A stretch of DNA of 47,123 nucleotides. Source: a bacterium. GTDB lineage: Bacteria > JAUVQV01 > DATDCY01. Positions within the stretch are counted from its first letter, which is position 1, and the number at the start of each line of letters is the position of its first letter. Below the pieces are notes generated by a model, which had not been told where the DNA came from, searched no databases, and saw nothing but the letters and a program-made list of their open reading frames with translations. Positions 8,461 through 45,800 of the stretch are shown piece by piece. The stretch spans positions 1 to 47,123 of the forward strand of contig DATDCY010000037.1 in NCBI GenBank assembly GCA_036524115.1. Direction: 5' to 3'. The translations under genes and the position numbers were made by a program.

Positions 8461-9978
8461 TCACCTCGCGGGGAACCGGGCCCCTGCCCCCCCGGGCGCC
8501 GCGCCCGCCTGCCGCGCACGCTCCCGCCACAGCGCGGCCTCGTCGCGGTCCCCGGCCATCTCCAACGCCTCCGCGAGGAACTGCATCGCCCAGTCGAAGC
8601 CGGGAAGGATGCGCAGCACTTCCCGGAACTCGCCGGCGGCGCGCTCCGCCTCGCCGCGCCGCAGCCAGGCGAGACCGAGCTGCATGTGGGCGTGCCCGTT
8701 CTCGCGGGTGACCGCCAGCGTGCGCGTCCAGAGCGTGACCTCGTCGCGCCAGTAGCCCGACTGCGCCCAGGTCAGCGTGGCGAAGGCGGTGAGCACAGCC
8801 ACCGCGACGCCAGCGCGATGCACAGCGCGCACGCGCAGGTGCGCGCCCAGATCCGCCACGCCCCAGACGACCGCCACGAAGACGCCCACGAGAGGCACGT
8901 ACGTGTAGCGGTCCGCCCGCGCGAACTCGCCGACCTGGACGATGCCGATCACCGGCACGAGTGTCCCCAGGTACCAGAACCAGCCTGCCGCCAGGTACGG
9001 GCGGGCGCGCGCGCGCCACACGCACAGCGCGGCGGCCAGGAGCAGCAGCGCGCCGCAGGCGACCGCCGCCCCCACCCGGACGCCGGCGCCGGGGTGGGGA
9101 TAGTAGGCGGCAAGGTCGCGCGGGTAGAGCGCCTGCACGAGGTACTCGGCGTAGGAGAGCAACGCATTCGCCACGCGATACCCCAGCGCATAGGCCGCCT
9201 CCCGCGTGACGGAGCCGAACGCGATCTGCGCACGGTACGACAGCGCCGCCGCGACGGGCACCAGCAGGAGGAAGGGGACCTTCTCGAGCAAGACGCGACG
9301 GCGCGAGCGACGCCATTTCTCCCGCGAGGCCGCCCCGCCCGCCGGGCCAAGCCGCCCGAGGGGCCAGAAGTCCAGCAGCAGCAGGACGAAGACGAAGGTC
9401 ACGGCCATCGACTTCGACATCAGCGCTGCGGTATAGGCCCCGAACGCAGCGGCATAGCGCAGCGGTCCCGGCCTGCGGACGTAGGCCACCCAGGCGGCGA
9501 TGCCGAGAAACCAGAAGAGCGCACAGAGGACGTCCTTGCGCTCCGAGACCCAGGCGACCGACTCCACGTGCAGCGGGTGCATGGCGAAGAGCGCCGCCAC
9601 GAGCGCGCTGCGCCAGAGCGCGCCCGTCGCCGCGCGCAGCGCGATGAACAGCGCCAGCGCCGCCGCGGCGTGCAGAAGAACCGCCGTCACATGGTGCCCG
9701 GCCGGGTTCAGGCCAAACAGCGTGACGTCGGTCATGTGTGACAGCCACGTCAACGGGTGCCAGAACGCCGCGTCGGTCGTCGTGAAGGCCCAGCGGACGG
9801 CCGCCGGCGTGAGCCCGCCCAGGACCGTGGCGTTCTCGGTGACGTAGTAGCAGTCGTCGTAGTCGGCGAGGAACTCGTGGCCGAGAACACGCGAATACAC
9901 CGCCAGCGTGGCGGCCCCCAGCGCGAGGGCGACGACGAGCGCCCGCGCGCCCTCGCCCGGGCGGGCCTTCAGCCTCAA
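8461..9978 (-). CDS. TMTC-like GT-C membrane glycosyltransferase with short TPR tail
   Basis: A 505-residue member of the local family. The Asp pair is at 41-42 (YDDCYYV), HPLHVESVAWVSERKDVL is near 133-150, and ADRYTYVP follows. The soluble tail from about residue 410 has only two or three TPRs, the shortest of the set. The start is uncertain. The frame opens at a GTG at 10086, but that codon overlaps a TATAGT -10 element and the extra 36 residues are Ala/Pro/Gly/Arg-rich without hydrophobic character. A TTG at 9978 has GCGAGG seven bases upstream and puts the first membrane segment close to the N-terminus, so I prefer it. The next gene downstream encodes its likely sugar-lipid supplier. Confidence 0.85.
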   Translation of the reverse strand: MRLKARPGEGARALVVALALGAATLAVYSRVLGHEFLADYDDCYYVTENATVLGGLTPAAVRWAFTTTDAAFWHPLTWLSHMTDVTLFGLNPAGHHVTAVLLHAAAALALFIALRAATGALWRSALVAALFAMHPLHVESVAWVSERKDVLCALFWFLGIAAWVAYVRRPGPLRYAAAFGAYTAALMSKSMAVTFVFVLLLLDFWPLGRLGPAGGAASREKWRRSRRRVLLEKVPFLLLVPVAAALSYRAQIAFGSVTREAAYALGYRVANALLSYAEYLVQALYPRDLAAYYPHPGAGVRVGAAVACGALLLLAAALCVWRARARPYLAAGWFWYLGTLVPVIGIVQVGEFARADRYTYVPLVGVFVAVVWGVADLGAHLRVRAVHRAGVAVAVLTAFATLTWAQSGYWRDEVTLWTRTLAVTRENGHAHMQLGLAWLRRGEAERAAGEFREVLRILPGFDWAMQFLAEALEMAGDRDEAALWRERARQAGAAPGGAGARFPAR

Positions 9979-10084
9979 GCGGCGACCTCGCCCTTGGCGT
10001 CCCCCCGGGCAGGGCGCCGCGGAACTCGACTCCAGCCGGTTCTCGGGAAATCCGCCAGGTGCATGCGCCGCCTCCGCCGCGGGC

Positions 10085-10090
10085 ACTATA
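10085..10090 (-). promoter_or_regulatory. -10 element TATAGT
   Basis: TATAGT on the minus strand upstream of the TMTC-like/DPM1 operon. A transcript starting about 7 nt downstream would begin near 10078 and carry a leader of about 100 nt to the TTG at 9978. The -35 region is poor. This is the one promoter here that does not predict a leaderless message. Confidence 0.4.
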
Positions 10091-10161
10091 GCACACGCCG
10101 CCGGGCGCCCAGAGACGCGGATGCGGCCCGACGCCGCGACCTCGCCGGGTCACGGGCAACC

Positions 10162-10190
10162 TTGACATTCCGGGGCCCCGCCCGAAGAAT
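10162..10190 (+). promoter_or_regulatory. Sigma-70-like promoter, TTGACA-N17-AAGAAT
   Basis: TTGACA at 10162-10167, a 17-bp spacer, then AAGAAT at 10185-10190, ending 9 nt before the ATG at 10200. The arrangement is nearly identical to that at 13978-14006, including the TTC directly after the -35 and CG-rich spacer. Confidence 0.75.
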
Positions 10191-10199
10191 CGTCGCGTC

Positions 10200-11369
10200 A
10201 TGCCCGACAATGCCCGTCCGCGAGGCACCTGGTTCGAGCGGCACCCGGCGACGACGCTGATCACCCTCGTGCTCGCCTTCGCCGTGGCCGTCGACCTGGC
10301 GGCGCTGCGCATCTTCCTCGAACCGAAGACCTTCTCTTTCCGGAGCAGGCACCCCTACTACCATCACACGCTCGTCCCCGGGTTTTCCGGCGCCGCGCGC
10401 TGGGGGGACATCGAGTACCCCATGGTCACGGACTCGCTCGGCTTCCGGGACTCCGCAGCGCGACAGGTGTCCCTGCGTCCCGCCGGCACGCGGGTCGTCT
10501 TCATCGGGGACTCGGTCGTCGAGGCCCTCGGCGTGCCCTACGCGGAGAGCTTCATCGGCGTGCTGGCGGCCGAGCCGGCACGGAAGGACGTGGAACTGCT
10601 GAATGCCGCGGCGCTGAGCTATTCGCCGACGATCTACTACCTGAAGACGAAGTTCCTGCTCGAGAACGTGGGCCTGCGCTTCGACGAACTGTTCGTCTTC
10701 ATCGACATCACGGACATCCAGGACGAGATCAGATACAAGAGCTTCACGCCCCGGCTGCCGGCGCTGCTCGACCGGGTCTCACTCGCGGTGGACGGCGCGC
10801 TCTACCGCAATTCCTTCGCCTACCACACGCTCTACGAGCGGCTGGTCCGCCCCCGCGAGAAGCGGATCGAGACCGTCTTCGACCCCGAACGCTGGTCCCA
10901 CCGGGACATCGCCGTTTCGGGCCTGTCGTACAGCGACGAGGACCGTCGCCGGATGGAGGCCGTCCCGGAGCCCGAGAACGGCCGGTGGCACTGGACGATC
11001 GACCCCGAGGCCTTCCGGCAGTGGGGCGAGGAAGGACTGAAGATCGCCGGTTCGCACATGGAGGCGCTGGCGAGGCTCTGCCGCGACCGTGGCATCCGGC
11101 TGACGCTGGTGGTCTACCCCGCCCCGCTCCAGATCTACGCGCACGACCTCGACAGCCTGCAGGTGCGCTACTGGGAACGCTTTGCACGCGACAACGGCGC
11201 CAGCTTCGTCAACCTCTTTCCAGCGTTCATCGGCACCGCGACGCCCGATCCCGATGCAACGTACCGGAAGTACTTCATCGCGAATGACACGCACTTCAAC
11301 GCCGAGGGCCACCGCTATCTCGCCCGGCTCCTCGACGCGTACGTCCCGCCGCGGCGCGCCGCTCCCTAG
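10200..11369 (+). CDS. Membrane-anchored SGNH/GDSL hydrolase-like protein
   Basis: A 389-residue protein with one N-terminal membrane segment (about 19-39) and an extracytoplasmic SGNH fold. Block I is FIGDSVVE with Asp104-Ser105 and the C-terminal block is DTHFN with Asp363 and His365. The block III Asn is not obvious: the equivalent stretch reads IDITDIQDE. Proteins of this shape in glycan loci often add or remove O-acetyl groups on secreted sugars, which is the best guess here. The ATG is fixed by the promoter ending 9 nt upstream, and there is no Shine-Dalgarno sequence. It converges on the next SGNH gene with 7 bp between the stops. Confidence 0.85.
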   Translation: MPDNARPRGTWFERHPATTLITLVLAFAVAVDLAALRIFLEPKTFSFRSRHPYYHHTLVPGFSGAARWGDIEYPMVTDSLGFRDSAARQVSLRPAGTRVVFIGDSVVEALGVPYAESFIGVLAAEPARKDVELLNAAALSYSPTIYYLKTKFLLENVGLRFDELFVFIDITDIQDEIRYKSFTPRLPALLDRVSLAVDGALYRNSFAYHTLYERLVRPREKRIETVFDPERWSHRDIAVSGLSYSDEDRRRMEAVPEPENGRWHWTIDPEAFRQWGEEGLKIAGSHMEALARLCRDRGIRLTLVVYPAPLQIYAHDLDSLQVRYWERFARDNGASFVNLFPAFIGTATPDPDATYRKYFIANDTHFNAEGHRYLARLLDAYVPPRRAAP

Positions 11370-11376
11370 CCTTCGA

Positions 11377-12558
11377 TCAGCCGCCGCCCGCGCCGGCGAA
11401 CCACCGCGCGACGAGGCCGCCGGCGAGGCTCGAGGCCGGCCCCGACAGGTGGTCGTCGTAGTCGAAGTACAGGTGGCGGCCGGCGTCCTCCTCCCGCTTG
11501 ATGAAGTCGGTGAGATCCAGGAACGGCACGCCCGTGTCCCCGCACTGCTCCCGAAGCAGACGGCGGTGCAGATGATAGGCCGGCCCGGTCATGTCGACCC
11601 CTTCCGGGTACCCGAGGCTGAACTCCCGCTCGAAGCGCTGGTAGTAGTTCGTCACCGTCCCGCGCTCCGGGATGTAGACGACCAGCAGCCGGCAGCCGAG
11701 CCTCGACAGGTATTCCCGCAAACCGCCCAGCGCCCCCCGGAGGTCGAACGGCGTCCTCAGGTCCGTCTCCAGATACTGCGAGCCCCCCATCCGGTAGGGG
11801 CTGAAACGGGCCGACTTCATGAGCGCGAGCACGCGTGGCGAGACGTGCTCCGCGAACTGCCGTTCAAACTCGGGATCGCTCCAGGGGTTGTTGGGGCTCG
11901 GGACCGGTTGGAGGAAGTTGGCCATGCGCCACGGCCAGCGCCAGGGAAGCTGCTCGCGGTTGCGCGCCATCGCCAGCAACTCCAGGAAGCGGGGCTTCCA
12001 CGCGGGGTAGGTTCCGAAGGAACGAGGCCGCGGCACCCCCACGTCGGCCGGCAGGTCGTTGGCGTAGACGACGAGGAGGAGAATGTCCGGGCGCAGCTGC
12101 GGAGCGGCGTCGACAATCAGCCGGAGCTCCGACTCCAGGCCGGCGCCGCTCACCCCGAGGTTCAGGGCCTCGACGTAGAGCCCCTGGCGCCTCAGATCGG
12201 CTTCGAAACCCTCGGGAATCGTCTCCCCGTCGGGCGTCAGCCCGCCCTCCACGAAGCTGTCGCCGACGAACAGCACCCGCTGCGCGCCCGGCGCCTTGCG
12301 GGCCGCCCAGCGACCGCCCCGGAAGCCGTACTCGTTGAGCCGGTGAACCACCCGCACCCGGTCGAGAACGTCGTCGTGAACGACCCTGATCGAGCGGATC
12401 GCCTTGGTGTCGCCCCCCTCCAGCCCGATGCTCATGTAATCAATGCGGTTGAGCCCCCTGATTTCGGGGAGCGGGAACACGAGCCGCAACGCCACCTCCT
12501 GGAAGAGCAGGCAGACGGCCGCCAGCCCCAGCGTCCGCACCGCTCGACTGCGTCTCAC
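11377..12558 (-). CDS. Membrane-anchored SGNH/GDSL hydrolase-like protein
   Basis: A 393-residue protein with one N-terminal hydrophobic segment (about 8-29) and a periplasmic or surface SGNH domain. FVGDSFVEGG gives Asp100-Ser101, LNLGVSGAG at about 132-140 gives the block II Gly, YANDL gives Asn167-Asp168, and DDHLS gives a His near 370. All four SGNH blocks are therefore recognisable. The GTG start overlaps the TGA of the upstream SGNH gene (GTGA), so both come from one message. Likely an esterase or acyltransferase acting on a secreted glycan; the acceptor is unknown. Confidence 0.85.
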   Translation of the reverse strand: MRRSRAVRTLGLAAVCLLFQEVALRLVFPLPEIRGLNRIDYMSIGLEGGDTKAIRSIRVVHDDVLDRVRVVHRLNEYGFRGGRWAARKAPGAQRVLFVGDSFVEGGLTPDGETIPEGFEADLRRQGLYVEALNLGVSGAGLESELRLIVDAAPQLRPDILLLVVYANDLPADVGVPRPRSFGTYPAWKPRFLELLAMARNREQLPWRWPWRMANFLQPVPSPNNPWSDPEFERQFAEHVSPRVLALMKSARFSPYRMGGSQYLETDLRTPFDLRGALGGLREYLSRLGCRLLVVYIPERGTVTNYYQRFEREFSLGYPEGVDMTGPAYHLHRRLLREQCGDTGVPFLDLTDFIKREEDAGRHLYFDYDDHLSGPASSLAGGLVARWFAGAGGG

Positions 12559-13889
12559 CGCCCAGTCTCTCCCGCGCGCCGGCCGTCGGTCGCGGCAGGG
12601 CCCGGGGCGTCGGGGCAGAAGCGACGCGCCAGTTCCTCGGCAAACAGCCCGGCGACGACCCTGTTGGCCGCCGGGGTCAGGTGCACCCAGGACACGAGCT
12701 GGTCCCGGTCGTGATCGAGGGCGGCGATGACGTCGACAAAGGGCACCGAGCGGGTCCGAGCCCAGCCACGCAGGTCGTCCATCAGCCGCCGATGGAGCAG
12801 CAGCGCGTACTCGTAGTAGTCGATCGCCGATCCCCACGCCATCCGCGCGGCGAGCCGGTCCGCCTCCTCGGCGTAGGTCACGCCACGCCGTCCGAGGCGC
12901 TCCCGCAACGGACGGGGGTACGGTGCCGCGGCGGTGGCCTGCTGGTTCGCGACGACCAGGTGGATGCCCAGCGCCGCGCAGGCCTCGCGAATCACCTCGA
13001 GGTTCCTCAGGAAGATCGCGCTGCGGAGATCTGCGTCCAGGTCGAACTTGTCCGCCGCCTCGTCGACGATGTCGTGGCCGCCGATCAGGACCCTGTCGAC
13101 GAACAGCGCCAGGAGCGAGTGCGCGGTGAGGGCGAGCCGCGCCCTGCCGCCCCAGGTCGTCGGCACTACGGTGCCGACGGTGTCGTTGCGCCCGTCGTAG
13201 AAGGTCACGGCGTCAGGCGCCAGGGGGAGGCCTTCCGCAAGAAACAGTGCCGCAGTCTCACCGGAGGTCTCGTGGGGTATGCCGAAGTTGATCACCTCGA
13301 AGCGACGGGTGCCGGCGCACCGGTCGTTGAGGAAACGCTCCAGATAGAAGGGGTAGGTCTCGTCATCGCGGTCGTAGTACCCGAAGGTCGAGGACGACCC
13401 CAGCGTGAGGACCCGCACGACGTCCGGCGGCTTCTGCGTGCCGAACTCCTGGCCTCGGAACCCGTGGCTGTTGATCGTCACGCGGATGCGCTCGCCCGTC
13501 TCCACGTCGCGGGTGGACTTGGTCTCGTTCGGGAAGAACTTGGCGTACCCGGTGTGCTGATCGCCGAGTCGCTCAACCGAGTCAGGGCGCGATTCCGCCA
13601 GCTCGTGCTGCTCGTTGTCGCGCCGGAAGCGCTCGTCGGTCACCGTCCTGCGCCAGCGGCGCTCGGCCTGGTCGGGGTTGGTGTTGCGATCCCAGGCGGT
13701 GCCGTACAGGAGCGCGCGCGGCCCGATCTCGTGCGAAACCCAGACGCGAATCCCGAGCTCGGCCAGCGCGACCACGGCGACCACCAGGTAGAGGGCGAAG
13801 AGGACCCGTGACGAAGACAGGGCCCGCAGCGCCGGCGAGATCTTCAACGACGGAAGGCCCCCCGTCGAACGCGCTCCGTCGGACAACAC
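12555..13889 (-). CDS. Membrane-anchored SGNH-like protein with variant block I
   Basis: A 444-residue protein with an N-terminal membrane segment at about 30-48. Block I reads LTLGSSSTFGYY (Ser165-167) instead of the usual GDS, so the Asp before the nucleophile is replaced. NFGIPHETSGE is the block II region, YDGRNDTVG holds Asn235-Asp236, and a His near 403 lies in VHLTPAANR. The remaining blocks are intact, so it may still be active. First gene of a two-gene SGNH operon. The GTG start lies 11 nt after an extended -10 element and has no clear Shine-Dalgarno sequence. Confidence 0.85.
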   Translation of the reverse strand: MLSDGARSTGGLPSLKISPALRALSSSRVLFALYLVVAVVALAELGIRVWVSHEIGPRALLYGTAWDRNTNPDQAERRWRRTVTDERFRRDNEQHELAESRPDSVERLGDQHTGYAKFFPNETKSTRDVETGERIRVTINSHGFRGQEFGTQKPPDVVRVLTLGSSSTFGYYDRDDETYPFYLERFLNDRCAGTRRFEVINFGIPHETSGETAALFLAEGLPLAPDAVTFYDGRNDTVGTVVPTTWGGRARLALTAHSLLALFVDRVLIGGHDIVDEAADKFDLDADLRSAIFLRNLEVIREACAALGIHLVVANQQATAAAPYPRPLRERLGRRGVTYAEEADRLAARMAWGSAIDYYEYALLLHRRLMDDLRGWARTRSVPFVDVIAALDHDRDQLVSWVHLTPAANRVVAGLFAEELARRFCPDAPGPAATDGRRAGETGR

Positions 13890-14769: not shown

Positions 14770-17121
14770 GTGAACGGGCCCGGACGGCGGTGGCCGCTCG
14801 TCGTGGTCCCCGTCGCGTACGTCCTGCTCCTGTGCGTCCCCCCGCTGCTGCGGGGCGACGGGCGGGTCCTCGGTTCGGAATCCGGCGACCTCTTCCTGCA
14901 GTTCGTCGGCCAGCGCGAGTTCGGCTTCGGGGAGATCGCGCGCGGCCACCTGCCGCTCTGGAACCCCCGCATCTTCAGCGGCATGCCGGCGCTCGGCAAC
15001 ATCCAGTTCGCGCTGTGCTACCCCCCCAATCTCCTCTTCCTGTTCCTCCCCCTGGCGTGGGCGTTCAACGCCTCAATCATGCTGCACCTGTCGCTCGCCG
15101 GCATCTGCATGGGGTGGTGGGTGCGCAGCCGGGGGGCCCCCCTGCTTCCCGCGCTCGTCGCCGGAATCCTGTACCTCGGGTGCGGCGCCCAGTTCTCGCG
15201 CGTGCTCGCCGGGCACCAGACGATGATCTGCCTGCTCCCGTGGGCGCCCCTGCTGTTCTGGGCCGTGGACGCCGTTGCGGCGGACGCACGCCCCGGGCCG
15301 GCGCTCGCGGGCGCGGCCGCGACGGCGATGATGCTGCTCGCGGGCTACCCGCAGTTTGTGTTCCACATCGGCGCGGCGGCGGGGCTCTACGCTGTTCTGC
15401 GCCTGACGGAGGTCGCCGCGAAGGGCCGCAAAGCGCTGCTGCTCGCGCTCATCCCGCTGCTCGCGGCGGGCATGACGGCTTTCCAGCTCGCGGCCACCGC
15501 GCAGGCGTCGGCCGGCAGCCTGCGCTCGGGAAAGGTCCCCTTCGAGTACGCCGCGATGTTCTCCCTCCCGTTGGAGAACCTGCTCACGCTCGTGAGCCCG
15601 TTCGTCTGGGGCGGGGCCGGCGGCGAGGGGTACTGGGGACGCTGGTACCTCTGGGAGACCCAGCTCTTCTTCGGCTGCACCGGGCTCGTCGCGGCGCTCC
15701 TGGCGCTGGGCAGGAAGGCGGACCACGACCGGTGGCCGATCCTCGGGGTGGCGCTGCTCATGGTCCTGCTCGCGCTGGGCGACACGACTCCGCTCTTTCG
15801 CGTGCTCTACGACCACGTCCCGCCGTTCGGGCACTTCCGCGGGGCCTCGAAGTGGGCGCTCCCGGCGAGCCTGTTCCTGGTCCTGCTCGCCGCGCGCGGG
15901 TTCCAGTCCCTGCTCGAGGAACCGGAGCGGCGGCAAGCGCTCCCATGGGTCCTTGCGGCGGCGGCTGTCGCCACGGGCGCGCTCGCCGGCCTCGGCTGGA
16001 ACGCGAGCGAAACGGCGGCGCCGGCGTGGTGGCGAGCCTTCGTCGCGGCGGTCGCCGGCAGCCGTCAGAGCTACGAACTGGGCCCCGACCTGGCGGCGAG
16101 CGGCGAGTTTCTGCGATCGACTCTCGGGGCCGCGTCCCGCGCGCTCGCCGTCGCGGCCGTCACGTTCGCCGCCATGGCGGTCCTCGCGGCAGTGGCGCGG
16201 CGGCGGCGCGGATTCGCGCCAGCCCTCCTCGTTCTGGCCGTCGTGGAGGTGTTCTGCTTCGACCGCGCCTACCTGGCGACGTTTCCGATTGAGGGCGCCC
16301 GCCGGCCGGACGTGGCCGGCGCGCTGCGCGGCGACAGCGGCGACTACCGCGTCCACGTCGCGGACCACCCGGACAGCGCGATGAGCACGGGCGCCAGGGA
16401 CATCTGGGGCTACGACCCCTTCGTTCCCCGGCGATACGCCGAGTTCGTGGCGTTCTCCCAGGATGCTCCCCTGGACACGCCCGCCGTGGACATTCCCCTG
16501 CAGCGTCTCGATCCGTTGCTGGCGCTGCTGCGGCTGCGCTATGTCGTTTCGCCCGCGGCGGCGGGCGGCCTCGATGTGGCCGGTCCGTTCCCGCACCTGC
16601 CCCGCGCTCTGCCGGTCCCCGGGTACGCCGTCGCCGCGCCCTCGCGGGAAGCCATCCTCGCGGCCCTTCGCCAGCCCGGGTTCGACCCTTATCGCACCGT
16701 GGTGCTCGAAGAGGCGCCGGTATTCCCCGCGGGATCGCCGCCGCATGCGGGCGATGGCCATGGGACGGCGCGGGCGGTGAGCGCCTCAACCGACGAAGTC
16801 GTCGTGGAGGCCGAGTCCAATGGCCCGACGCTGCTGCTGTTGACGGACCCCTTCTCCCCCGGGTGGCGGGCGACGGCCCTTCCCGGATCCTCGCAGGCGG
16901 AATACCGCATCCTCAGGGCGGACTATGTGCTTCAGGCCATACCGCTGGGACGTGGCACCCATCGTATCAGGCTGCAGTACGCGCCGCGCGGCCTCGGCTT
17001 CTGGGCCGCGGTCTCGCTGTGCACGACCATCGGCGTGGCCGCCGCCGGATTCGTCCTCCGCCGCCGGGGCCGGCGGCGACCGCCCGCCGGCCAGCCCGGC
17101 GCGCCGGCTACCTTCCGGTGA
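14770..17121 (+). CDS. YfhO-like polytopic membrane protein
   Basis: A 783-residue protein with about 12 membrane segments. The N-terminal signature, GDLFLQFVGQREF followed by LPLWNPRIFSGMP, and the extracytoplasmic tail reading DPFSPGWRAT, then ADYVLQAIPLG, are typical of the YfhO family. Some Gram-positive members act in glycosylation of lipoteichoic acid or similar surface polymers as GT-C enzymes. Here it follows a polyprenyl-phosphate sugar synthase by 7 bp, the usual pairing of donor maker and user. The GTG start has a GGCGGTGA stretch upstream. Its last 14 bp overlap the tail of the convergent radical SAM remnant. Confidence 0.85.
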   Translation: MNGPGRRWPLVVVPVAYVLLLCVPPLLRGDGRVLGSESGDLFLQFVGQREFGFGEIARGHLPLWNPRIFSGMPALGNIQFALCYPPNLLFLFLPLAWAFNASIMLHLSLAGICMGWWVRSRGAPLLPALVAGILYLGCGAQFSRVLAGHQTMICLLPWAPLLFWAVDAVAADARPGPALAGAAATAMMLLAGYPQFVFHIGAAAGLYAVLRLTEVAAKGRKALLLALIPLLAAGMTAFQLAATAQASAGSLRSGKVPFEYAAMFSLPLENLLTLVSPFVWGGAGGEGYWGRWYLWETQLFFGCTGLVAALLALGRKADHDRWPILGVALLMVLLALGDTTPLFRVLYDHVPPFGHFRGASKWALPASLFLVLLAARGFQSLLEEPERRQALPWVLAAAAVATGALAGLGWNASETAAPAWWRAFVAAVAGSRQSYELGPDLAASGEFLRSTLGAASRALAVAAVTFAAMAVLAAVARRRRGFAPALLVLAVVEVFCFDRAYLATFPIEGARRPDVAGALRGDSGDYRVHVADHPDSAMSTGARDIWGYDPFVPRRYAEFVAFSQDAPLDTPAVDIPLQRLDPLLALLRLRYVVSPAAAGGLDVAGPFPHLPRALPVPGYAVAAPSREAILAALRQPGFDPYRTVVLEEAPVFPAGSPPHAGDGHGTARAVSASTDEVVVEAESNGPTLLLLTDPFSPGWRATALPGSSQAEYRILRADYVLQAIPLGRGTHRIRLQYAPRGLGFWAAVSLCTTIGVAAAGFVLRRRGRRRPPAGQPGAPATFR

Positions 17122-17957
17122 GCTGTCTCAGCCAGTTGAGGACGACCGCGATGTCGAGCGAGTAGAGGTAGTTGTACTCGATGTAGCACCCGGCCGAGCA
17201 GGACTGGCAGGGAATGACGGCGCTGTGATCAAAGGCGGCCTTGAACCCGTCCGTCAGGACGTTCTTCGCGTCCATCAGGCCGACCATGACGCTGCACGGG
17301 TAGAGCCGGCCGTCCGCATCGACGTTGCAGTAGAGCTGGCCCGCGGAGCAGCCCAGCCCGTGGTGCGTGGGCTTCAGGTACGCCTGCCGGAAGTCCGGCC
17401 AGTCGTGAAGGTAACGGAAGTAGCGCAGGGAGTTCAGGACGGGGGCGCCTTCTCTCTTGCGCGCCATGAGCAGCTCGATCGCATCGCGGTACTCCTGCGC
17501 CGAGGGCATGAGGTCCGGCGCCTCGGCGGATCCGAGCGCCTGGTGGTGCAGCACCTGCCACGTCGTCGAGAAGCCGCGCTCCCGTGCGGTCCGCAGGATG
17601 AAGTCAATCGACCCCAGGTTGTTCTTCGTGAGCACCGTGATCGTCCACACCGGCAGGACCGGGCATGCGGCGGCAAACGCGTCCATCACCTTGGCGAAGC
17701 TGCCGGGCTCCCGGTTGGCGTCGTGCACGCGCTCCTCGCCGTCGAAGCTAACGACCAGCACGTCGAGCCCCGCCAGGTCGCCGATCTTCTGCGGCACCAG
17801 CGCCCCGTTGGTGTCGAGGCTGGTGATGAGTCGCAGCGTCCGGCAATGCCGGATGATGGCGCCGATGTCGTCGCGGATCAGCGGCTCCCCGCCCCAGAGG
17901 GCAATGCGGGCGCCGCCGAGCCTGCGGAACTCGGTGATCACGGAGAGCACCTGCTCG
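17108..17957 (-). pseudogene. Radical SAM/SPASM protein fragment, N-terminal part missing
   Basis: About 283 codons of a radical SAM protein: SEQVLSVITEFRRLG, then the substrate-loop motif WGGEPLIRDD, LITSLDTNG, VVSFDGEE, and a Cys-rich SPASM-like end (GLGCSAGQLYCN, LYPCSV, CQSCSAGCYIEYN). The CxxxCxxC cluster motif that must precede WGGEP is absent. Homology stops at about 17957, where a different gene's sequence begins on the other strand. The frame runs on to 18058, but that stretch is only the antisense of the amine oxidase fragment. Without the iron-sulfur motif it cannot be a working radical SAM enzyme. Either a true deletion or an assembly join. Confidence 0.8.
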
Positions 17958-18272
17958 GAGCCCGTGTGGGAGCAGCCGCTGGAGCGTGAGCCGGCAATCC
18001 GCGAGGCCCTCGTGCGCGTCGGGGCGGTCAGGGAAGAGGGCGACATCCTCGGCGTCACGGTGGAGCGGGCGCGCGAAGCGTACCCGATCTACGCCCTGGG
18101 CTACTGCGAGCGCTATGCCAGGGCGGAGGAAGCGCTGCGCCGCCACCGCAACCTCCTGCTCCTGGGAAGGAGCGGCACCTTCCAATACAACAACATGGAC
18201 CACTCCCTCGAAGACGCGCTCAGGCTCTACGCGAGCCTCAGCCGCCCCGACGCCGCGCGCGGCGCAGGATGA
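17958..18272 (+). pseudogene. C-terminal fragment of a flavin amine oxidase / UDP-galactopyranose mutase-like protein
   Basis: About 104 codons that start abruptly with EPVWEQPLERE and end with a stop. ERAREAYPIYALGY, NLLLLGRSGTFQYNNMDHSL and EDALRLY match the C-terminal FAD-binding end of the amine oxidase family related to UDP-galactopyranose mutase and protoporphyrinogen oxidase. The family is normally 400-500 residues, so some three quarters of the gene is missing. There is no promoter or start at the junction. The join with the radical SAM fragment is within a few bases. Confidence 0.8.
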
Positions 18273-18329: not shown

Positions 18330-19493
18330 CTAGCGTGACTTCTGATACGAAACACTGGCGGCAAGCGCGTTCACGCGCGAGTCAGAGCCCAGGGCGGCGT
18401 GAATTCGGCTGGCGACAAAGCGATTCCCCGCGGCAGAGAGATGCCCGGCCGCCTGGAAGTACGGCGTATCCCCGGCTGAGATGAACTGGGCCTCGAGTTC
18501 CTCGCCCGGCAGTTGCCGGAAGTCCGGAACGAGATCGATGAAGATCGCCCCGGTACGGGCCGCCGTATCGCGCAGCAAGGCGCTCCAATAGAGGTAGGTC
18601 GGGGTGTTTGCGAAGCAGTCATCGTGGAGCGGCAAGTACACGACTGCGAAGACTCGATTGCGCTGCTGGTGTGCGTGGGCGAGCTGTTCGACGAGAGCCT
18701 GGACAATCGCCGGAAGGTACGACGCCGACAGAACCTCGCTCTCCGCCGCGGGCCGGCGCAAAGAGCGCGCCACCTCGGTGAGCCGCAGCAACCGCACCCC
18801 CGAGACCAGGGGGTAGATCCCGGGGTAACGCCAGATGCTCGACCGTCGAGGCACGGGCGTGTTCTTCGTCAGCAGTCGACCGTGCTCGAGCGCGAGTACC
18901 GGCTTGCCGAATCCGAGTGTCTCGGTCTGCTGCATGCGCTCGAACATCAAGCCATCGAATACCAGCAGCTGGATGTCATCTTCAAGGATCGCGCCGTCGC
19001 GCATGTACCAGAGGTACGCCTGGTCGGCGCCATAGCCGCCCTGCCCCATATTCACCGGCTCTATGAGCGGATCGATCCGCGCCAGCCGGTTGCACCAGGC
19101 ATCCTCGGTGTCCACCCCGTAGCCGAACGTGAAAGAGTCGCCGGAACAGACGACCCGGATCTTGCCGGGCGGCGGCCCGGGCGCGATTTCCGCCGCGCCA
19201 CGGAACCCGCGGGCGTTGGTGGCCACGCCGCGACCTGGCCCATACAGATCTGCGGCGCGGACGTTTCGCCTGGCAACCCACCCGAGATCGGGATCGTAGG
19301 TGCAATAGCGCCACTCGGCGACGGGAAGGCTTTCGCGCGCCGCCCGGAATGCGTGCAGAAGGCTCGCGGCCCCTTCGAGGAACACGACGACGCTCACCCC
19401 GAACGCGACACCTCCGAGCGCCAGCGCAAGGCGCGGCACACGCCGGACCGCGCGCGGCGCGGACGCGCCTTGTTCGCGCACATCACTCGGCAT
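18330..19493 (-). CDS. Membrane-anchored SGNH hydrolase-like protein
   Basis: A 387-residue protein with one N-terminal membrane segment (about 22-40). CSGDSFTFG gives Asp119-Ser120, NMGQGGYG near 148-155 is block II, and a His near 351 lies in GHLSAAGN. Block III reads VFDGLMFE and lacks the expected Asn. The ATG at 19493 is chosen because the TTGACA promoter ends 6 nt upstream, which would place the transcript start at or next to the ATG. The frame itself is open for 90 more codons upstream, but these are antisense to the neighbouring relic. GC content looks a little lower than in neighbouring genes. Confidence 0.85.
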   Translation of the reverse strand: MPSDVREQGASAPRAVRRVPRLALALGGVAFGVSVVVFLEGAASLLHAFRAARESLPVAEWRYCTYDPDLGWVARRNVRAADLYGPGRGVATNARGFRGAAEIAPGPPPGKIRVVCSGDSFTFGYGVDTEDAWCNRLARIDPLIEPVNMGQGGYGADQAYLWYMRDGAILEDDIQLLVFDGLMFERMQQTETLGFGKPVLALEHGRLLTKNTPVPRRSSIWRYPGIYPLVSGVRLLRLTEVARSLRRPAAESEVLSASYLPAIVQALVEQLAHAHQQRNRVFAVVYLPLHDDCFANTPTYLYWSALLRDTAARTGAIFIDLVPDFRQLPGEELEAQFISAGDTPYFQAAGHLSAAGNRFVASRIHAALGSDSRVNALAASVSYQKSR

Positions 19494-19598: not shown

Positions 19599-19766
19599 AT
19601 GAGGGAACACTACGTCATCGCCGACGCTGGCATCGGCGGCCTCGCGGTCGCGCATCGCCGTGCCGCATGCGCCGGGACGCCGCCCCGCTTCTTTGCGGCG
19701 TTCCGGATACGCAGGCCGATCGCCAGGATCGGCTACTCGATCTTCCTCTATCGGACCGACCAATGA
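19599..19766 (+). pseudogene. Hybrid relic: FAD-motif N-terminus joined to another gene's C-terminus
   Basis: A 55-codon frame. The first 20 residues, MREHYVIADAGIGGLAVAHR, look like the start of a flavin amine oxidase with its Rossmann loop, but the first glycine of GxGxxG is Asp. After this the similarity ends. The tail, RIRRPIARIGYSIFLYRTDQ, resembles the end of a methyltransferase or similar enzyme, and its stop overlaps the next ATG (ATGA), as expected for the last codons of an upstream operon gene. So a promoter and gene start appear fused to the end of a different gene. The assignment of the tail is tentative. Confidence 0.6.
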
Positions 19767-32640: not shown

Positions 32641-34457
32641 TGCACCTGCCGCGCACGACGGACCGACGGCGACTCCTCGTCGCCTGCCTCCTGGTCTTCT
32701 CCGCGGCGACAATCCTCTACCTCCCGGCGACGCGTTACCCGTACAACCTGCTCGACGACCGCGCCCTCGTCACGCAGAACCCTCTCGCCCGCAGCGTCGG
32801 CGGGCAGACGCCGGGCGGCCTCTTCTCCGTCCACGAGGGCTACTGGATCCCCGTCACCTGGCTCTCCTTCAGCATCGAGCAGTTGGTGGCCGGCGGGAGC
32901 CCCGGACTCTCCCACGGCACGAACGGGCTCCTGCACGCCGGCAACGCCGTCCTGCTGCTGCTGCTCCTGGCGCGGCTGACCGGCAGGATCGCGCCTGCGT
33001 CCCTCGTGGCCGCGGCCTTCGCCGTGCACCCCGCCGGCGTCGAGGCGGTGGCATGGATCTCCTCGCGCAAGGACGTCCTCTCGACCTTCCTCGCGCTCTT
33101 GTCGCTCCACGCGTATGTCGCCTGGACCCGCCGGCCCCGCGCCGGCTTCGCCGCCGGCGCGCTCGCTCTCTTCGTGGCGAGCGTCCTGGCCAAGCCGATG
33201 CTGGTCCTGCTGCCCGTACTCCTGCTGCTGCTGGATTTCTGGCCGCTGGGGCGCTGGCGGTCGGAGCGGCCGGCCGCGCTGGCCGCCGCGAAGTTCCCTT
33301 TCGCCGCCGTCGGCGCCGCGGTCGCCGCGGTGTATCTCCTGACCCAGAAGAGCCATGTCACGGGCCTGGCGATCGTCGGCCTCGGTTCCCGGCTCGCCCA
33401 CGGCCTGGTCGCGCCACTCTTCTACCTGGGCATGCTGCTGCGGCCCGCCGACCTCGCCTTCATCTACCCGATCCGCGAGCACCCCTACCCGCTCTGGCTG
33501 GTGCTCCTCACGCCCTGCCTCGTTGCCGCGGCCACGTGGTGGGCCGTGCGCGAGCGGCACCGCTTCCCCTGGGTACTCGCGGGCTGGTTCTGGTACCTCG
33601 CGACGCTCGCGCCCGTCTCGGGGTTCGTGCAGGCGGGTGTCACGATCGTGATGGACCGCCTCGTCTACGTGCCGGGGATCGGCATCCTGCTGCTCGCGGC
33701 GGGGGCGCTCGGCGCGGCGCTCGGCGGCGCGACGGACAGGCGACGGCTCGCCATCGCCGCCGCCTGCGTGGCCGGCATCGCCATGCTCGCTGCAATGCAG
33801 AGCCGGCAACTCTCGTACTGGCGGGACGACGAGACGCTCCTCTCCCGAACCGTCGAGGTCGCGCCGGACAGCGGCATCGCCCAGTGGAACCTCGCGATCA
33901 CCCTCCTCCAGAAGGGAAACCGGGACGGGGCGCTGGAGCACGCCCGAGCGGCGCGCCTGGCCGCCCGCGGGGACGGCGAGATCATCTACAACGCGGGCCT
34001 GGTGCTCGACAACCTCGGCCGGTTCGAGGAGGCCGCGGAGGCGTTTCGGGAAGCCATCGCCCTCGGCGACCCGAGCGCGCGGGTGCGGGCGGCCCTGGGC
34101 GTAGCCCTCGGCAGCACGGGGCGGATCGAAGAGGGGCTGCCGTTCCTGGAGGAGGCCCGAAGGCTCGACCCGCGCTCGAGCGAGGTCGCCTTCAACCTCG
34201 GCGTGGCGCTGCTGCGGCTGGGCCGGCCGGCGGAGGCGCTCGCGCCCCTTTCCGCGGCGGCAGCCCTCTCTCCCGGCGATCACCGCGCTCTCTTCAACCT
34301 CGGGATCGCCCTCCAGGGCGCCGGCCGACCCGCGGAGGCGGCGGACCGCTTCGCGGAGGTCCTCCGCATCGCACCCGGCCTCGACGCCGCGCGCCGGCAC
34401 CTCGCCGAGGTCCGGGAAGTGCTCGGGCGGAACGCAGCCGCGGGGGACGCACGGTGA
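32640..34457 (+). CDS. TMTC-like GT-C membrane glycosyltransferase with TPRs, variant motifs
   Basis: A 605-residue paralogue that departs most from its eight-member subgroup. The Asp pair is at 39-40 (NLLDDRALV), the signature is HPAGVEAVAWISSRKDVL, and MDRLVYVP replaces ADRYTYLP. LAKPML is kept. Five or six TPRs follow from about residue 410, including a regular series around FNLGVALLRLGRPAEALAP. It starts on the stop of the previous gene and its own stop overlaps the next start (GTGA), so all are translated as a unit. Whether the changed motif shifts sugar or acceptor is unknown. Confidence 0.9.
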   Translation: MHLPRTTDRRRLLVACLLVFSAATILYLPATRYPYNLLDDRALVTQNPLARSVGGQTPGGLFSVHEGYWIPVTWLSFSIEQLVAGGSPGLSHGTNGLLHAGNAVLLLLLLARLTGRIAPASLVAAAFAVHPAGVEAVAWISSRKDVLSTFLALLSLHAYVAWTRRPRAGFAAGALALFVASVLAKPMLVLLPVLLLLLDFWPLGRWRSERPAALAAAKFPFAAVGAAVAAVYLLTQKSHVTGLAIVGLGSRLAHGLVAPLFYLGMLLRPADLAFIYPIREHPYPLWLVLLTPCLVAAATWWAVRERHRFPWVLAGWFWYLATLAPVSGFVQAGVTIVMDRLVYVPGIGILLLAAGALGAALGGATDRRRLAIAAACVAGIAMLAAMQSRQLSYWRDDETLLSRTVEVAPDSGIAQWNLAITLLQKGNRDGALEHARAARLAARGDGEIIYNAGLVLDNLGRFEEAAEAFREAIALGDPSARVRAALGVALGSTGRIEEGLPFLEEARRLDPRSSEVAFNLGVALLRLGRPAEALAPLSAAAALSPGDHRALFNLGIALQGAGRPAEAADRFAEVLRIAPGLDAARRHLAEVREVLGRNAAAGDAR

Positions 34458-35518
34458 CGACCCGCGCCGACCTGCGCTTCCTCGGCTCGATCCTCGCGTC
34501 GAATTTCCGCCGGCTGGCCCATCCCTTCAAGATCTCGTTCGCGGTCACCTACCGCTGCAACATGCGCTGCGCGATGTGCAACATCTGGCGCAAGACGCCG
34601 GCCGGCCGCGAGCTGGACGCCGCCGAGATCGACCGGTTCTTCCGGCACGCGACGGGCGCCTACTGGGTGGGCATCACCGGGGGCGAGCCCTTCCTGCGCG
34701 AGGACCTGCCGGAGATCATCGACAGCGTCTGCCGCCACTCGCGCCGCCTGCGTTCCATCCACTTCGCGACGAACGGGTCGTTCGGAGAGCGCGCCGTCGC
34801 GGCGGTCGGACGCATCCACGGGCACCTGCCGCGCCTGCCGGTCGTCGTCACCGTCAGCATCGACGGGCCGCGCGAGCTGCACGACCGGATCCGCGGCAGG
34901 AGCGGCGCCTGGGACGCGGCGGTCGCCACGTTCACGCGGCTGAAGGCGACGCCGGGCGTCAAGGCGCAGGTCGGCTTCACGCTCTCGCACGCCAACGTCG
35001 GCCGGTTCGAGGACGCCCTGGGCGCGCTGCGCGCCGCCTTCCCCGCCCTGCGCTTCGACGACGTCAACGTCAACATCTTCCAGCGCTCCTCCTTCTACTA
35101 CGAGAACCTGGAGGTCCCGCGGCCCGACCCGGGGCTGCTGGCCGCGCAGATCGAGTGCATCCTGGCCCTCGACGGCGGGGAGGCCTCGATCCACAACTTC
35201 CTGCGGCGGCGCTACCTGCGCCTCCACGACAGCTTCGCCCGGACCCGCCGGTGCCCGCTCACGTGCCAGGCGCTCTCCTCGACGTGCTACGTCGACCCGT
35301 CCGGGGACCTCTACCCCTGCGCCGTCTACCGGAGGCGTCTCCTGAACGTCCGGGAACTCGATGCGCCGCTGGAGCAGGCCTGGTCGTCCGAGCAGGCGCA
35401 CCGCATCGCCTTCGAGTGCTCCCACGACCAGTGCCCCGGGTGCTGGAATCCCTGCGACGCCTTCAGCGCCATCGGCGGCTCGCTCGTGCGCGCGGCGCTC
35501 GGCAGACCCCGGCGATGA
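34454..35518 (+). CDS. Radical SAM protein with SPASM-like C-terminus (first of tandem pair)
   Basis: A 354-residue enzyme. CNMRCAMC gives the SAM-cluster cysteines 35, 39 and 42; TGGEPFLRED, FATNGS and VSIDGPRELHD are the expected core motifs. The end carries further cysteines (CPLTCQALSSTC, LYPCAV, CSHDQCPGCWNPC), enough for one or more auxiliary clusters. The GTG start overlaps the previous stop. No PqqD-like peptide-binding domain precedes the barrel. It may modify a sugar, a lipid or a peptide; it could be relevant that a 20-residue peptide is encoded 4.8 kb away. Substrate unknown. Confidence 0.88.
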   Translation: MTTRADLRFLGSILASNFRRLAHPFKISFAVTYRCNMRCAMCNIWRKTPAGRELDAAEIDRFFRHATGAYWVGITGGEPFLREDLPEIIDSVCRHSRRLRSIHFATNGSFGERAVAAVGRIHGHLPRLPVVVTVSIDGPRELHDRIRGRSGAWDAAVATFTRLKATPGVKAQVGFTLSHANVGRFEDALGALRAAFPALRFDDVNVNIFQRSSFYYENLEVPRPDPGLLAAQIECILALDGGEASIHNFLRRRYLRLHDSFARTRRCPLTCQALSSTCYVDPSGDLYPCAVYRRRLLNVRELDAPLEQAWSSEQAHRIAFECSHDQCPGCWNPCDAFSAIGGSLVRAALGRPRR

Positions 35519-36582
35519 GAACGCCGCATGTGGACCGCATTCGCAGGAGTCTCGGGCTGCTCGGCGCCGTCGCGGCCTCGAACTTCCGGCGCCTGCGCCA
35601 CCCGACGACGCTCTCGTTCGCGGTCACCTGGCGCTGCAACCTGCGCTGCCGGACGTGCAACATCTGGCGTCGCGCGCCGACGGACGGGGAGCTGACGCCG
35701 GCGCAGGCCGACGACTTCTTCCGCCGCACGGACGGCTTCCGCTGGGTGGGCCTCACGGGCGGGGAGCCGCTCCTGCGCCCCGACCTCGCGGCGATCGTCG
35801 ACGCCGCCGCCCGCTGCCGCACCCTGGACACCATCCAGATCAACACCAACGGGCAGCTCCGCGAGGCGGCGCTCGCGCTGCTCGAACACGTCCGCCGGCG
35901 CCATCCCCGCCTGCGCGTGGTCCTCACGGTGAGCGTCGACGGACCGCCCGATGTCCACAACCGCATCCGCGGCAAGGCGGGTGCCTGGGAGCGCGCCGCC
36001 GCAACGTTCGTCGCCGCCAAATCGGTCCGCGGCGTCAAGGCGCAGGTCGGCTACACGATCTGCGCCGACAACCTTGGCCGATTCGCGGCCGCGTACGAGG
36101 CGCTGCGCTCGGCGTGGCCGGCCCTGCGCTTCGACGACGTCAACGTGAACGTCTTCCAGACCTCGGGCCACTACTACGGCAACGAGGGGATGGCCCCGCC
36201 GGATGACACCGCCCTGTTCCGCGAGATCGACGCCATTCTCGCGCTGGACCGCGACCGCCCCAGCGTGAACAACGCCCTGCGCCGGCGCTACCTGCGTCTC
36301 TACCAGCGCTACCTCGCCGAGCGCCGCAGCCCGCTGCGCTGCCAGGCGCTCTCGGTGACCTGCTTCCTCGACCCGGCGGGCGACCTCTACCCGTGCGTCG
36401 TCTTCCCGAGGGTCCTGGCGAACGTGCGTTCGCTGGAGGGGGGCCTGCGCGACCTGTGGGGTACGGCGGCGGCCCGGGCATTGCACCGGCAGTGCTCGAG
36501 CGGCGGATGCCCGGCCTGCTGGAGCCCCTGCAACGCGTTCAGCGCCATCGGCGGCTCGCTCCTGCGGGCGGCGTTGACCTGA
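35515..36582 (+). CDS. Radical SAM protein with SPASM-like C-terminus (second of tandem pair)
   Basis: A 355-residue close paralogue of the preceding gene, overlapping it by ATGA. CNLRCRTC supplies cysteines 41, 45 and 48; TGGEPLLRPD, NTNGQL and VSVDGPPDVHNRIRG follow. The C-terminal cysteines are in the same pattern (LRCQALSVTC, LYPCVV, CSSGGCPACWSPC). Long blocks such as PALRFDDVNVN and CNAFSAIGGSLLRAAL match the first copy with few changes, so this is a tandem duplication. Two copies kept side by side suggest either two substrates or a heteromeric pair. Last gene of the plus-strand operon. Confidence 0.88.
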   Translation: MRTPHVDRIRRSLGLLGAVAASNFRRLRHPTTLSFAVTWRCNLRCRTCNIWRRAPTDGELTPAQADDFFRRTDGFRWVGLTGGEPLLRPDLAAIVDAAARCRTLDTIQINTNGQLREAALALLEHVRRRHPRLRVVLTVSVDGPPDVHNRIRGKAGAWERAAATFVAAKSVRGVKAQVGYTICADNLGRFAAAYEALRSAWPALRFDDVNVNVFQTSGHYYGNEGMAPPDDTALFREIDAILALDRDRPSVNNALRRRYLRLYQRYLAERRSPLRCQALSVTCFLDPAGDLYPCVVFPRVLANVRSLEGGLRDLWGTAAARALHRQCSSGGCPACWSPCNAFSAIGGSLLRAALT

Positions 36583-42833: not shown

Positions 42834-45800
42834 TTACCATGCGCCACCCCACGGCGACACCTTGTTCCAGCCGCCGCTCTTGAGATCGTCGTTGGCGCGG
42901 TGGCAGTTGTCTGCCGCCTCCCAGTAGGGGGCGTACTTGTTCCTGTCCGTCAGCGTCGCGTTCGTGTAGAGCGACTGCGACGCGCTCTTGTTCGGGCCCC
43001 AGGCGTTCGAGTTGCTCGTGGTCTTCCCCGCGTGGTTGATGTCGAGGCAGTTGGTGATGAGCAGCTTCGGCAGGCGCGAGGCGTGCGGGTTGTGGCACTT
43101 CGAGCACGGGAACTGATGGTACTGGTTCTGGTTCCAGCTCGTGGTGCTCACCGAGGACTGGACCGCGCCCCAGTTGTAGGAATTGTAGTTGTATTGGCCG
43201 GCAAACCGGGGCGCGTACATGCCGCCCGAGCCACGGTATCCGTACCCCGCTCTCGAGGCCCTGAGCTTCCAGTTGAGGTACCCCTGGTCCGGCACCTGGC
43301 TGTATGCCGTAGGCGTCCTCGACGAAATGAAGTTCACCATCGGCCGCCCGTGCGTGAAGTCGAAGATGTCAGCCGCGCCGGTGCCGGACGTCCCGGTGCC
43401 TCCGATCACGGCGTTGGCGTGACCGTTCGTCCCGTACCAGAAGGCCTCGCTGACGTAGTCCATCGTGTTCACGTTGGTGGTGTGGCACGCCGTGCAGAGG
43501 CCCGCGCTCGACCCCAGCGCCCAGCTGTTGGTGCTGGTCGGCCGGCTGCCGATCGCCAGGTTCGGGTTGTTCTCGTCGATGAAGTACCCGCCCTGCTCGG
43601 TGTACGCCGTGCCGCCGCGCGGCAGCGACCCGAAGCCCTTGTTCGTGTAGTTCTTGTTGAAGGGCGCGCCGTCCTCGGGGTACGGGCTGCCCTTCCAGGT
43701 GCCGCGCAGGAACGGCTTGGCGATTGTCGAGCCGCCGCCGTTCGTACCGAAGTGCACGTTGTGGCAGTAGCTGCAGCGGATCAGGCTGATGGCGTCCGGG
43801 GTCTCGGTCATTCTGCCGAACGACCCGCTGACCGCGGCGCCGCCGGCCGTGTTCGCCGTGTGGATGGACTGGATCGTCCCGACCTTGTAGGCGAACGCCG
43901 TCTGGGCGCTGTTCCATGTCGACCCTCGCCACCGCATCGTGCTGATCGTCCCGAAGTTGTAGTTGGCGGACGCCGCCAGGCCGTTCGTCTGGGTGTTCGT
44001 GCCCCACTCCGAGACCTCGTTCGCGTCGGCCAGGCTGCCGTTCTTGTTGAAGTCGTGGCAGTTCCAGCAGATCTCGGCCTCCGTCGTCCCCGAGGTCTGG
44101 TTGCCGCCGAGCACGTAGCCGACGACCCCGGTGTCGACCGTGTGGTTGTAGTGCGTCCACCCGGCCACCGCGCTCCCGAACGCGTTCTTGATCGCGACGA
44201 CGTTGGCGTCGCCCTTCTTCGAATGCGTCGCGCCCCGGTTGCCACCCGGGTGGCAGTCGTCGCACCCGGCCGCGGTCGTGCTCCGGGTGAGCTTGGTGTG
44301 CGGATCGCCGATGGCCACCTGCGGCGCGTTGGTGTTGTTGACGTTGTCGTGGCACGACGTGCACTTGCCGGCGCCGAGCCGCAGCAGGTTCTTGCCGCTC
44401 GTGGTGTTCACCGCGGCGAACTGGTGCGCAGCGTCGTTGCCATGGCACTTCGTGCTCGCGCAGCCCCCGCTCGACGTCTGGTAGCTGGCGCTGGCCGTGC
44501 TCGGCGTGCCGCCGTTGAGTTCGACGCTGCCGTTCGTGTGCCCGCCGTAGGTGTCCAGCCCGTTGAGCACGCTCGTCGCCATGTAGACGTACGGCGAGGC
44601 CGGGTTGGCGATGCCGCCCGTGCCCTTCATGCCGTGGCAGAAGCTGCACTCGTCGTGGTTGTCGGTGAGGGCCGTCGTGTTCCCGAGCACCTGCGTATCG
44701 TGGTTGACCGGCGCCACCCCGCTCGCGTGGAGGTTGTTCGTGGGGTCGGAGGGACTGGTCGGCGGGTAGCCATGGCAGGTCCGGCAGGTCGCGCCGCCGA
44801 AGTCCCGGGCGGCCACCGTCCAGGCCGAGCTCTCCATCCGGTACCCCGAGCGGTAGTCGTGGCACACGGCGTTGTTGCAGCCGTAGGTCGTCGTCACGTA
44901 ACCCACGCCGGTGACGTTCATCTCGATGCTGCCGTTGCCGTGGTAGCTCTGGCTGTCGAGGGCGCGCCAGAAGCTCCCCCCGAGCGAGTAGTTCGGATGG
45001 GCGTCCGCGGTGTCGTTGACGCCGTGGCACATCTTGCAGGTGTTGTGCCGCCCCGGCGTCATGACGCTCCCCGCGGTGTCGGTGGTGTTCCAGTGGTAGC
45101 TGTGCTCGACGTTGTTGTCCGTCGCGTTGTGCGTGCCCGTGCCGAAGTTCCAGCCCGCGGCCTCGGTCCCGTGGCAGCCGCCGCACTCGGACTTCGTCTG
45201 GGTCGGGTCATTGGTGCCCAGGTACGAGTCGGTGCTCCAGATGCGCGCCCACGAGCCGGCGTCGCCGGCGCCATCGTGGCAGCCCGTCACCCCGACGCCC
45301 GCGCCCGAGCAGCTGAACGCGGTGTCGTTGAAGGCCGTCCGCATCGTGGAGTTCAGGTGGAACTCGTTCGAGGCCTGACTCACGACATCCGTGGCGAACG
45401 CGCCGTCGGCGTGCGCCGTGGCCGTGGAGACGTTGTGACAGCTCGTGCAGCTGCCCACGGTGCCCGAGAAGGCGTCGTCGTGCGACTCGTGCGAGATCGT
45501 CGGCACGGTGGCGTTGTTGTGCAGACCGCTCCGCGGGTTGAGCCCCACCGTCGTCGTGTTGCTGTGGCAGTAGGTGGTGCAGTTGCTGAAGGAGAGGTCC
45601 CAGTCCGGCGTGCCCGTTGCGTGGCAGCCCAGGCCGGTCCCGGTCGACGTGCAGGTGCGCGCCGTCGTGCTGTAGTTGTACGACACCGTGCCGGTGATAC
45701 TGATGCCGGCCTCGTCATAGGTGGCCGTCGCCGCGTCCACCGTGCTGGTCGAGTAGTTGATGTGCGCCGTGGACGTCGGCAGCGTGCCGTGGCACGTCGC

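Follow-up and report, generated by a model that had tools for sequence, protein, structure and literature searches.

How did two genes that both lack their 5' parts come to lie head-to-head in a bacterial contig, and does their junction record an event in the organism or a fault of the draft genome? The window analyzed here is a whole contig (G000:C37) of 47,123 b, taken from a draft assembly of 3.91 Mb in 374 contigs that is 95% complete and 4% contaminated. The explanation we favor, with a probability of roughly 0.55, is a real and recent loss of at least about 1.2 kb that fused two 3' remnants head-to-head.

Two 3' remnants with a common end point

The original prediction described a radical SAM fragment without its CxxxCxxC motif on the minus strand, an amine oxidase fragment on the plus strand, and a junction between them at about 17957. 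The features that we recognize around this point are collected in Table 1.

Table 1. Location of the two remnants, their join and the adjoining genes in the window.
Feature	Positions	Strand	Basis
YfhO-like membrane protein, complete	14770..17121	+	PF09586 match to profile end; ORF
3' remnant of radical SAM/SPASM gene (stop at 17108)	17108..17959	-	PF04055 profile match; alignment to full-length relatives
Join of the two remnants	17956..17961	.	Ends of both homologies, overlap at most ~3 bases
3' remnant of PRK07208-like FAD/amine-oxidase-family gene (stop at 18272)	17958..18272	+	NF005546/NF005548 C-terminal matches; P0007/P0008 alignment; whole-genome homologues
SGNH/GDSL-like protein	18330..19493	-	PF13472, E 2.9e-6, under gathering score; ORF

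On the minus strand, the translated frame P0002 (17120-17968, 283 residues) shows 45-51% identity to full-length radical SAM proteins. Its match to P0006 starts at residue 53 of 340 with nothing earlier aligned, which places the first codon of the remnant at about codon 53 of about 340. The missing ~52 N-terminal residues include the CxxxCxxC cluster motif, found in all 15 aligned relatives, while GGEP and the C-terminal cysteines are still present. The Pfam Radical_SAM profile PF04055 scores 36.8 bits (gathering score 29.5) and is covered only from position 31 of 166. Judged by these matches, the piece is most probably a remnant of the PF04055 superfamily and not a working member.

On the plus strand, 17958-18272 is 44-47% identical to the C-terminal ~100 residues of FAD oxidoreductases of ~442-479 aa. 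It keeps about 104 residues, beginning at residue ~343 of about 442, and lacks the ~343 N-terminal residues, the FAD-binding Rossmann part among them. The tblastn matches at the window reach E values of 1e-92 for the radical SAM protein and 1e-15 to 1e-16 for the FAD protein, and the match of both fragments to their families is far beyond chance. Among the NCBIfam models, TIGR03961 (PTO1314 family radical SAM) and the PRK07208-type FAD oxidoreductase model fit best, both for the remnants and for full-length relatives. Against TIGR03961 the remnant scores 95.9 bits and three full-length relatives 109-130 bits, all under the curated cut-off of 306; against the PRK07208-type model the remnant scores 44.4 bits (cut-off 418) and two full relatives 220-241 bits (cut-off 389), so that far-lower scores mark these proteins as related to the families, not as members of them.

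The join was placed by eye on alignments with 15 radical SAM and 8 FAD relatives. Radical SAM homology ends at codon 17957-17959, FAD homology starts at GAG 17958-17960 or CCC 17961, and the coding pattern stops at the join from either side. Both fragments, the missing motif and, within a few bases, the proposed position are thus borne out by the homology limits on the two strands, the Pfam match and the full-length alignments. Possible microhomology at the join amounts to ~0-3 bases, with no notable flanking repeats. Since the two coding homologies share no stretch of k-mer length, an ordinary repeat or k-mer misjoin is unlikely; of the assembly error that the original prediction had offered as its alternative, the likelier form would be a chimeric molecule. 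A hairpin-driven strand switch was rejected as well, the DNA fold at the join being no stronger than that of shuffled sequences (z 0.72).

Neither remnant is visibly decayed. Codon-position G+C values (0.64/0.44/0.93 for radical SAM, 0.75/0.48/0.89 for FAD) resemble those of intact neighbors, internal stops are absent, and both frames align end to end without a visible frameshift. Open frames, normal codon-position composition and conserved residues would also suit short genes that still work, such as a radical SAM C-domain carrying auxiliary clusters only. We consider this highly improbable, as the N-terminal part with CxxxCxxC occurs in every aligned relative and selection for separate short genes does not predict a shared end point for the two. 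We expect neither remnant to be active, because one has lost its iron-sulphur/SAM motif and the other its FAD-binding part.

At their 3' ends the remnants are each convergent with a neighbor, the radical SAM remnant with the YfhO-like gene and the FAD remnant with the SGNH-like gene, and these flanks look native. Neither flanking gene found a match in G001, which was the sole other member of the host's order in the first search set of 60 genomes (remaining relatives: 'same domain'). Further along the plus strand, a 55-codon frame at 19599-19766 begins with MREHYVIADAGIGGLAVAHRR, a Rossmann FAD-binding-like start, and overlaps the next gene by ATGA. It was rejected as the lost FAD N-terminus, having no Pfam match and lying on the wrong side of the join.

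The missing 5' parts and the two halves of the contig

Two queries, the first 79 residues of P0006 and the entire FAD protein P0007, were used to seek the lost 5' parts in the whole draft genome. These found only the window remnant and distant paralogues, and no orphan piece was recognized; the best other FAD match is 33% identical and nearly full length, and the best other hit for the N-terminal part of radical SAM has 42% identity across ~57 residues. Likewise, no GxGxxG FAD-binding N-part adjoins the FAD remnant, and none was found as a detached fragment elsewhere in the genome. Not counting any spacer, at least ~1.2 kb of DNA is absent at the join. The 20 contigs sampled go down to 1,623 b in length; a cut-off applied before binning could thus have removed a missing fragment of ~1.2-1.5 kb, and absence from the assembly is weak evidence of real loss. 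Elsewhere in the window, two tandem radical SAM genes (34457-36582, plus strand) are paralogues of the truncated one (about 29%, tblastn) and keep the motif, as CNMRCAMC at 34556 and CNLRCRTC at 35635.

The sequences left (17,957 b) and right (29,166 b) of the join have a tetranucleotide correlation of 0.945, higher than all 11 comparison sequences (0.71-0.86 for two other contigs of the same assembly, 0.15-0.83 for nine other genomes). A chimera between species is therefore not favored. In the ORF lists, SGNH-like and multi-pass TPR-type genes are present on both sides; read by eye, 8461-13889 and 18330-40211 contain several genes of SGNH-hydrolase-like type together with many large membrane-plus-TPR ones, similarly laid out. 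At the right end, a minus-strand open frame of 1,429 residues (42834-47123) runs past the contig end; with 19 CxxCH, 6 CxxxxCH and 1 CxxxCH motifs it looks like a large multihaem cytochrome-like protein.

The gene pair in relatives

A deletion between divergent genes presupposes an ancestor in which the two genes were arranged divergently, and a comparison with related genomes for the intact pair had been suggested. One scan of genome contigs gave six loci, of which L048 (51%) and L049 (47%) are close, and whole-genome searches with alignment A1 covered overlapping sets of 293, 386, 289 and 289 genomes. Altogether 23 orthologue loci were read (L048, L049, L087, L088, L079, L109-L124, L147 and L148); their quality is uneven, L109 and L122 being shorter than 5 kb and L120-L124 weaker homologues.

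Seven of the 23 loci carry a FAD homologue close to the radical SAM orthologue (L048, L049, L087, L088, L112, L119 and L148); two of them, L112 and L148, share one genus, and one, L087, shows only the FAD start at a contig end. Both genes are on the same strand in all seven; the FAD gene comes first in L119 and the radical SAM gene in the other six. The pair spans 5845-8185 in L048, 5842-10424 in L049, 7658-12042 in L088 and 6475-8833 in L112, with two genes between the partners in L049 and L088. In two Geobacterales MAGs, the FAD copy that best matches the remnant of the window lies close to the radical SAM gene. The intact divergent pair was found in none of the 23 loci.

The radical SAM and FAD genes are thus a recurrent neighborhood across genomes, and for this reason the join probably arose at short range rather than at random. 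The models searched give the pair no specific function, and literature searches for PTO1314/radical SAM, and for radical SAM with SPASM and amine oxidase together with polysaccharide and Geobacter, found nothing. One might speculate, at rather long odds, that radical SAM/SPASM and FAD proteins form an undescribed same-strand two-enzyme module of several unrelated lineages that has just been lost here.

The same-strand order also invites a larger real rearrangement, namely an inversion, balanced or partial, that would break within each of the two genes and set their C-terminal parts head-to-head. Such an event should leave a reciprocal join of the two N-terminal parts, which is absent from window and genome, and inverting an adjacent pair would place the FAD N-part at the radical SAM stop, where the complete YfhO gene lies instead. 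We therefore regard the inversion as improbable.

Recent loss or false join

Deletion-generated pseudogene pairs are gene remnants that flank a deletion and retain their 3' parts. The window resembles them in that two neighbors are cut at one breakpoint with their 3' parts kept; it differs in that the remnants are undecayed and that proof by an intact relative of the same species is absent here. In the scenario we favor, a deletion of the DNA between the two genes in the host lineage, probably illegitimate, that is, independent of homology, would have taken the 5' end of the radical SAM gene together with the 5' three quarters of the FAD oxidoreductase gene. An earlier inversion may have turned the same-strand pair into a divergent one, and deletion within such a lineage-specific arrangement would be the simplest real history. 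The coincidence of both homology limits, the complete convergent neighbors at both 3' ends, expected after one deletion within a divergent pair, and the common tetranucleotide signature argue for this loss; with no stops or frameshifts in the remnants, it would have to be very recent. Of the deletion originally proposed, then, the single breakpoint and the 3' flanks fit, but the divergent ancestor was not seen. Further points against a real loss are the scant microhomology without flanking repeats and the occurrence of the join in only one fragmented draft genome. We nevertheless infer that the event took place in the organism itself and that the preceding gene order was divergent.

A false join is a serious contender, at clearly less than even odds. 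It would consist of a chimeric DNA molecule from amplification or library preparation, or of an assembly join, in which two intact genes of the same region were inverted and the intervening sequence dropped; both genes would then be complete and on one strand in the organism. The undecayed frames agree with this, an inverted join would restore the orientation seen in all seven relatives, and in a draft of 374 contigs the missing piece could lie under the contig cut-off. It is weakened by the lack of k-mer-length coding homology at the join and by the failure to find the 5' parts in the bin. Moreover, most molecules are normally non-chimeric, and the assembler should prefer the true path. The simplest artefact is an inverted chimera. 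In a study of multiple displacement amplification (PMC1855051), more than 85% of 475 chimeras were inverted sequences with an intervening deletion, and more than 70% had complementarity of 2-21 nt. The window shares with chimeras so described the inversion, the missing intervening DNA and the little or absent microhomology; in contrast to them, its join sits in an assembled contig, from a genome that may not have been amplified.

As biology the case is unremarkable, whether a single DNA loss has killed both genes or the draft genome contains a false join. For annotation it serves as a warning that neither gene on the contig is to be counted as functional, and the join draws attention to a recurrent pair of radical SAM and FAD enzymes.
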